Positions 55,550 through 57,177 of a stretch of 64,000 bases of DNA are shown in pieces (positions within the stretch are counted from its first letter, which is position 1; every line of letters starts with the position of its first letter). The notes below the pieces were generated by a model, which searched no databases, was not told where the DNA came from, and was given only the letters and a program-made list of their open reading frames with translations. Source of the DNA: Methanococcoides methylutens (GTDB lineage: Archaea > Halobacteriota > Methanosarcinia > Methanosarcinales > Methanosarcinaceae); the NCBI RefSeq assembly GCF_000765475.1, contig NZ_JRHO01000009.1, positions 62,001-126,000 of the forward strand, in the 5' to 3' direction. A program made the position numbers and the translations under genes.

Positions 55550-56974
55550 TTAGAGTTTATTTTCAAAGGATAAGTCTTTTTTGGAAGGGACTAAATTCCG
55601 GAAGTTGATCGTATACTTTGAGCCTGAACTTCCATCAATATGGATCTCGCCCTGGATCTGTTCTACAAGTTCATTTACAAGTTTCAGCCCAAGGGTATCT
55701 GTTGCTAATATTTCCTTTACAGGGAATCCAGTGCCATCATCTTCTACTATAAGGGTGAAACGATCATCAATTTGCTGGAAACGAATTGAGATGGTGCCAC
55801 TTCCATCCGGGAATGCATATTTGAAACTGTTTATGATAAGCTCATTTAATATCAACCCCAGATGCGTTGCGGTATCAAAGTTCATGAAAATGTCCTTTGA
55901 TTCGATATTTATGTCTATTAACTCGATCTGGTGTTCGTTCATGTGCTACAGGTAGTTTACGACATCCTGCACATAATTGGAAAAATTGACTTTTCCCATC
56001 TCTTTTGAACGGTAAATTCTCTCATTGGCAATTGCGATTGAATGGACTCTATCCCTGCTTTTCTCGAAAGCACTGACAATATTGGGGTCACTGAACTTGG
56101 ATGATTCAAGGTCAAGAAGACTGGAAATTACCTGAAGATTGTTCTTGATCCGATGATGTATCTCCTTCTCGTGTATCTCATCTGCTTTGATAAGTGCCTC
56201 TTCAGCCCTTTTCCTGTCGGTTATGTCTTCACCTGAGCACAAGACTCCGATGATCTCTCCCTCTCTGCCATGCAGGAGTGAGTTATGCCACTGTATTTGT
56301 CTCTCCTTGCCATCCAATCTCAGAATTGGGGTTTCGAAGCTTTCTAAGCCTCCTGTCTTCCCTCCGATAAACCGGTAGAATTGTTCAATTCCCTCTTTTC
56401 TGTATCTTTCGGGCACCAGTGTTTCGTAAAAGTCTTCTCCGATCAAAGAACCATCTCTGCAACCGATTATCTCGCATCCTTTTTTATTCATGAGCTGGAT
56501 CTTTCGGTCAGTACCAAAAACCGTGATCATAACTCCGGCAATGTCCAGGTAATTGCGTGCAAGGTTGCGTTCAGATTCGTTCTTCTCGTTAAGTTCCTTT
56601 ATTTTCAGAAGTGATCGGATCCGTGTTTTAAGTTCCAGCTGATCAACAGGTTTTGTCAGGAACTCATCAGCACCGGCTTCAAATCCTTTTATGCGATCTT
56701 TCCTGTTTGAAAGGGCGGATACTATTATTACAGGTATAAATCGGGTGTGTGGATCATTTTTCAATATGTTACAAACTTCGTATCCTTCTATATCAGGCAT
56801 CATAATGTCTATCAGGGCAAGGTCGATATCTTCTTTTTTAATGATGTCAAGACCTTCTTTTCCATTGTAGGCAGTTAGTACTTCGTAGTCAGAGGCCAGG
56901 TATGCCTCCATCAGTTCTAAGATCTTCTGATTATCATCGACAACCAGTATTTTTGGTAAAGCGTGGTTCTGCAA
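55550..56974 (-). CDS. Response regulator-PAS-histidine kinase with in-frame amber codon
   Basis: Read through one TAG this is a 474-residue protein: receiver domain (D13, D14, phospho-Asp D56), PAS domain (about 140-255), HisKA_2 dimerisation domain with EIHHRIKNNL (H273), then the amber at codon 343 (positions 55946-55948), then the ATPase domain (NELIINSFKYAF, DDGTGFP, TLGLKLVNELVEQI). TAG CAC ATG keeps the same frame on both sides with no missing sequence: NYL-TAG-HMNEHQIEL. Homologues usually have a residue such as F here. In Methanosarcinaceae TAG may be read as pyrrolysine. Alternatives are two separate proteins, a nonsense mutation, or a sequencing error. Confidence 0.7.
55946..55948 (-). 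other. In-frame amber codon (pyrrolysine or readthrough candidate)
   Basis: The codon TAG lies between CTG and CAC-ATG in one uninterrupted kinase frame, at the junction of the HisKA_2 and ATPase domains. The ATG after it has no ribosome binding site, and neither half alone makes a complete kinase. Confidence 0.6.
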
Positions 56975-57177
56975 TCTGGTTACCTTCCTGTGGATAAAAT
57001 TGTTCTATTGAAGGACACTTACTAACGTAACAAGTTTCCTTTGCTAACCTTGTATATATAGTAAACTATTATCTTTCGGTATGCATATATTTCTGAAAAG
57101 TATCATCTCTTTTTTTCTATTTTTGACACGTTGGTATTTGCAGGAAACTTGAAATATCTTGATGAAAACCTCTTCCT

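Follow-up and report, generated by a model that had tools for sequence, protein, structure and literature searches.

The locus considered here raises the question of whether a sensor kinase gene with a TAG codon in the middle of its frame encodes one protein or two, or has ceased to encode a functional protein. It lies in a window of 64,000 nucleotides from Methanococcoides methylutens. On the minus strand, a full reading frame of 474 codons (55550..56974) starts at a TTG and stops at a TAA, and its codon 343 is a TAG (55946..55948). ORF 1 (56974-55946, minus strand) covers the first 342 amino acids, from the TTG start to a terminal ...VVNYL that is followed by the TAG. Beyond this codon the same frame reads HMNEHQIEL... 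and closes with a TAA at 55550-55552.

Four Pfam domains, all with scores over the curated cut-offs, are found along this frame on the minus strand: a receiver domain (residues 9-120, PF00072; 56615..56950), a PAS domain (residues 147-256, PF08448; 56207..56536), a HisKA_2 phosphoacceptor region (residues 271-345, PF07568; 55940..56164), and an ATPase domain, HATPase_c (residues 369-458, PF02518; 55601..55870). The last two share one chain when the TAG is read through, and the phosphoacceptor histidine motif EIHHRIKNN is invariant in all 11 orthologues. The initial annotation had placed the TAG exactly between the phosphoacceptor and ATPase domains. The codon does precede the ATPase domain, but it falls near the end of a predicted helix (331-345) that comes after the phosphoacceptor hairpin and with which the ATP-binding module begins. 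The structure model of the full-length kinase is poor (mean pLDDT 54), and that of the kinase part, which is better (pLDDT 73), was used for helix placement only.

One way to read such a gene is as two. In that case, translation would terminate at the TAG and restart at the ATG three bases on, so that the ATPase would be a protein of its own, cooperating with one that consists of the receiver, PAS, and phosphoacceptor parts. The short distance would allow coupling, and selection persists downstream of the TAG. Nevertheless, this ATG (codon 345; 55940..55942, minus strand), the nearest candidate for re-initiation, shows no Shine-Dalgarno pairing with the 16S rRNA tail (+0.5 kcal/mol), in contrast to the TTG start, which is preceded by the Shine-Dalgarno sequence AGGAAGGT (56982..56989, minus strand; -7.6 kcal/mol). 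Both energies were computed against the tail as located in the genome, and they bear out the initial remark that the ATG lacks a ribosome binding site. In addition, the ATG is an old codon for a Met that is conserved in the continuous gene of all relatives; thus, nothing has been gained here that would serve as a start. As TAG also seldom terminates in this genome (see below), a split gene is very unlikely.

The gene is present in all 11 Methanococcoides genomes searched, where it is orthologous and syntenic, and the same flanking sequence is seen in Methanococcoides vulcani. Two of the 11 orthologues carry TAG at codon 343, with the frame intact in both and proteins that are 95% identical; in the other nine the codon is TCC, CAC, TAC, or TAT (Ser, His, or Tyr) and each gene is uninterrupted. 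The view that the kinase is interrupted by nothing other than an in-frame TAG is therefore upheld by a second species with the same codon and by nine with a sense codon. An error of sequencing or assembly at codon 343 is always a general possibility, and here a practically negligible one, because the assembly that shows the same TAG in the second species is a separate one. According to the gene tree, the TAG was gained once, on the branch to two sister species that stand beside species with Ser and His. Their DNA is about 95% alike over a comparison of 400 kb. Every variant at codon 343 is one step from TAC, and a Tyr codon is likely to be the ancestral state.

The TAG might instead be a recent nonsense mutation in a decaying gene, as these genomes hold many such kinases, of which one could be dispensable. 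Nevertheless, two species have the TAG in common, and a second disruption is not seen in the gene. Between the two species, there are 28 synonymous and 16 non-synonymous differences before the TAG (dN/dS 0.14) and 10 synonymous and 9 non-synonymous differences after it (dN/dS 0.22), with no significant difference between the two ratios. Barring a transfer of the codon from one species to the other, all these differences postdate the TAG. Although the test of the second part is based on 19 differences between little-diverged species, it rejects neutral evolution there (p 0.002 by the binomial test, 0.001 by simulation). Consequently, both species very probably produce the second half as protein, and a pseudogene is extremely improbable.

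The means to translate the codon are encoded in the same genome (G000; 2.51 Mb in 15 contigs): a single cluster, at a distance of about 165 kb from the kinase, holds genes for tRNA-Pyl (pylT, anticodon CTA), PylS, PylB, PylC, and PylD. This complete set, together with the sense codon in the orthologues and the selection downstream of the TAG, makes pyrrolysine at residue 343 the best reading, in agreement with what had been proposed at the outset. The cluster itself holds another TAG, at the end of pylB (G000:C9:284456-285590, minus strand), which overlaps the start of pylC (TAGGATG) in G000 and in two further genomes (G002 and G052). The frame past this codon is open for 42 codons and, in a comparison of the three genomes, it is constrained as pylC and not as pylB. 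Since the frame beyond looks constrained only as pylC, TAG may still terminate here, possibly at the one such place in the genome, and the overlap might serve to make pyrrolysine synthesis self-limiting.

How far TAG acts as a terminator elsewhere was surveyed over 1.09 Mb, or about 44% of the genome, on three contigs (C9 as a whole and parts of C10 and C14). Among 810 non-overlapping ORFs of at least 150 amino acids, 436 terminate with TGA, 361 with TAA, and 13 with TAG. Two of these 13 look antisense, one is pylB, and about ten continue in frame, mostly through a Pfam domain or conserved sequence. The ten comprise MtbB (named from a reading of its sequence), an F420-hydrogenase-like subunit (FrhB-like), the receiver-PAS-HisKA_2 kinase, a fasciclin protein, a class II fumarase, a UvrD-type helicase, a CcmF_C protein, a TatD-like protein, a surface protein of 1856 residues, and a second sensor kinase; for the fasciclin and surface proteins, read-through was judged from the look of the sequence alone. 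Likewise, 329 conserved gene ends, compared with a third genome, consist of 196 TGA, 133 TAA, and no TAG codons.

Some apparent conserved TAGs were set aside in this comparison with the third genome. Those at C9:1-5000 lie in a near-identical stretch that is probably ribosomal RNA, and several others either belong to antisense frames or precede likely starts.

Two control stretches give a measure of these counts. In the first, from a related genus that we take to be Methanolobus, TAG ends 11 of 61 long ORFs, and four of these 11 are copies of one gene. In the second, presumably from Methanosarcina, TAG ends 4 of 141 long ORFs, which is not significantly more than the 13 of 810 in Methanococcoides. 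What follows the TAG differs, however: mostly short chance extensions in the control stretches as against a conserved continuation in Methanococcoides. TAG is hardly used as a terminator, and it sits inside conserved genes unconnected with methylamines (fumarase, UvrD helicase, CcmF_C, TatD, and the sensor kinases); thus, it appears to be close to a pure sense codon in this genome. If so, nothing out of the ordinary has to be invoked for a TAG where the residue is variable, and a special recoding signal would not be needed.

Several other TAG-bearing genes of the genus were compared individually. In the class II fumarase (G000:C10:51648-52278, minus strand, and beyond), the in-frame TAG lies within the Lyase_1 domain and is kept in six of the seven Methanococcoides genomes that hold the gene, with Trp in the seventh. 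The second sensor kinase, of the PAS-GAF-HisKA type (G000:C14:14099-14588, minus strand, and beyond), has two TAGs, and none is found in its five orthologues (six genomes compared). The genus has a third TAG-bearing sensor protein of the receiver-PAS kind (L141), which occurs in G037, presumably M. burtonii; its TAG falls in the PAS region, where the similar protein of G000 has a sense codon. In addition, a repeat protein with GGYILTGSYYAG motifs occurs in G002:C1 (about 2422600-2423583) and G052:C1 (about 361819-362791); its TAG has the same position in both genomes, and 119 further residues follow.

The initial annotation had gone beyond the presence of pyrrolysine, with the idea of a special regulator whose full length could follow the supply of methylamines. 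As a pyrrolysine-dependent switch, the full-length kinase would follow pyrrolysine supply and report methylamine metabolism, with the 342-residue form as an off state or decoy. A stop at the TAG would leave out the ATPase domain and thereby inactivate the kinase; the codon has been retained in two species; and in the bacterium Acetohalobium the reading of UAG as pyrrolysine is reported to depend on trimethylamine (PMC8211752). By contrast, nine of the 11 orthologues lack the TAG, whereas a switch controlled by pyrrolysine would be expected to show it conserved across them. TAG is general in the genome, fumarase and helicase included, and the codon site is variable. Likewise, no methylamine gene is found among the neighbouring genes, which encode a nuclease, a metalloprotease-like protein, IF-5A, and agmatinase and, farther away, methyl-coenzyme M reductase system component A2, and an Rfam search around the TAG gave no significant match to an RNA family. 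A switch, with the position of the TAG as the only point in its favour, is improbable, and the claim of a special regulator is not supported. A related idea is that the kinase senses the pyrrolysine economy: a shortage of charged tRNA-Pyl would halt translation at codon 343, so that a phosphoacceptor-only form would build up. Were this true, signalling would track methylamine use in the two species with the TAG, but we regard it as distinctly improbable.

The reading that we prefer, with a probability of about 0.83, is that of one soluble receiver-PAS-HisKA_2-ATPase kinase of 474 residues, in which the TAG is read as pyrrolysine and tolerated at a variable site. One base change in the ancestor shared by the two sisters, from TAC (Tyr) to TAG, is the most likely origin of the codon. 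The cell's own tRNA-Pyl and PylS would translate it as pyrrolysine to give the full-length kinase. Residue 343 is a freely varying, non-catalytic position, and tolerance of pyrrolysine there, close to where the first helix of the ATP-binding module ends, would explain why the codon was kept. Both the insertion of pyrrolysine and its neutrality are what we infer from these observations. The comparison at codon 343, which gave Ser, His, or Tyr within a single continuous gene in each of nine genomes, agrees with this preferred reading. According to reviews from 2010 and 2021, UAG serves as both sense and stop codon in archaea with pyl genes, and its decoding requires no signal in the mRNA (PMC2933860, PMC8211752). 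Nevertheless, most of the product of a UAG reporter in Methanosarcina was terminated, with 20-30% read-through (PMC2933860); the efficiency of decoding in Methanococcoides can therefore not be taken for granted.

Support for the kinase as a predicted pyrrolysine protein is good, and such a protein is ordinary for this genome. Gene callers that treat TAG as a stop fragment it and about nine more genes in the surveyed 44% of the genome; consequently, annotation of Methanococcoides should read TAG as pyrrolysine. In addition, the TAG gained at a variable site of the kinase, a gain that close relatives allow one to place, and the older one in the fumarase offer a small natural series for following the spread of a reassigned codon.

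Known systems resemble this kinase in different respects. By sequence and fold, the nearest solved relative of its phosphoacceptor-ATPase part is the blue-light histidine kinase EL346, the N-terminal part of which is a light-sensing LOV domain. EL346 (PDB 4R39, 4R3A) differs from the kinase in that N-terminal part, has no TAG, and is about 20% identical. A sensory transduction histidine kinase with an in-frame UAG also appears as a pyrrolysine candidate in cluster 16 of the survey by Have et al. (2013), with members in M. acetivorans, M. barkeri, and M. mahii (PMC3639795). The methyltransferases MtmB, MtbB, and MttB of Methanosarcinaceae, like the kinase, combine an in-frame TAG and a conserved downstream frame with a genome that has pylTSBCD. 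In contrast to the kinase, in which the TAG is found in two of 11 orthologues and at a variable, non-catalytic position, theirs is fixed and catalytic. Finally, Kivenson et al. (Science, 2025) are said to have described an archaeal 'Pyl code', in which TAG is a general pyrrolysine codon, with proteomic proof for certain archaea. The proof for those archaea is reportedly proteomic, whereas the case for the present genome is drawn from sequence; nevertheless, the Methanococcoides genome is like them in that TAG hardly ever serves as a terminator and is found within conserved genes of unrelated kinds.
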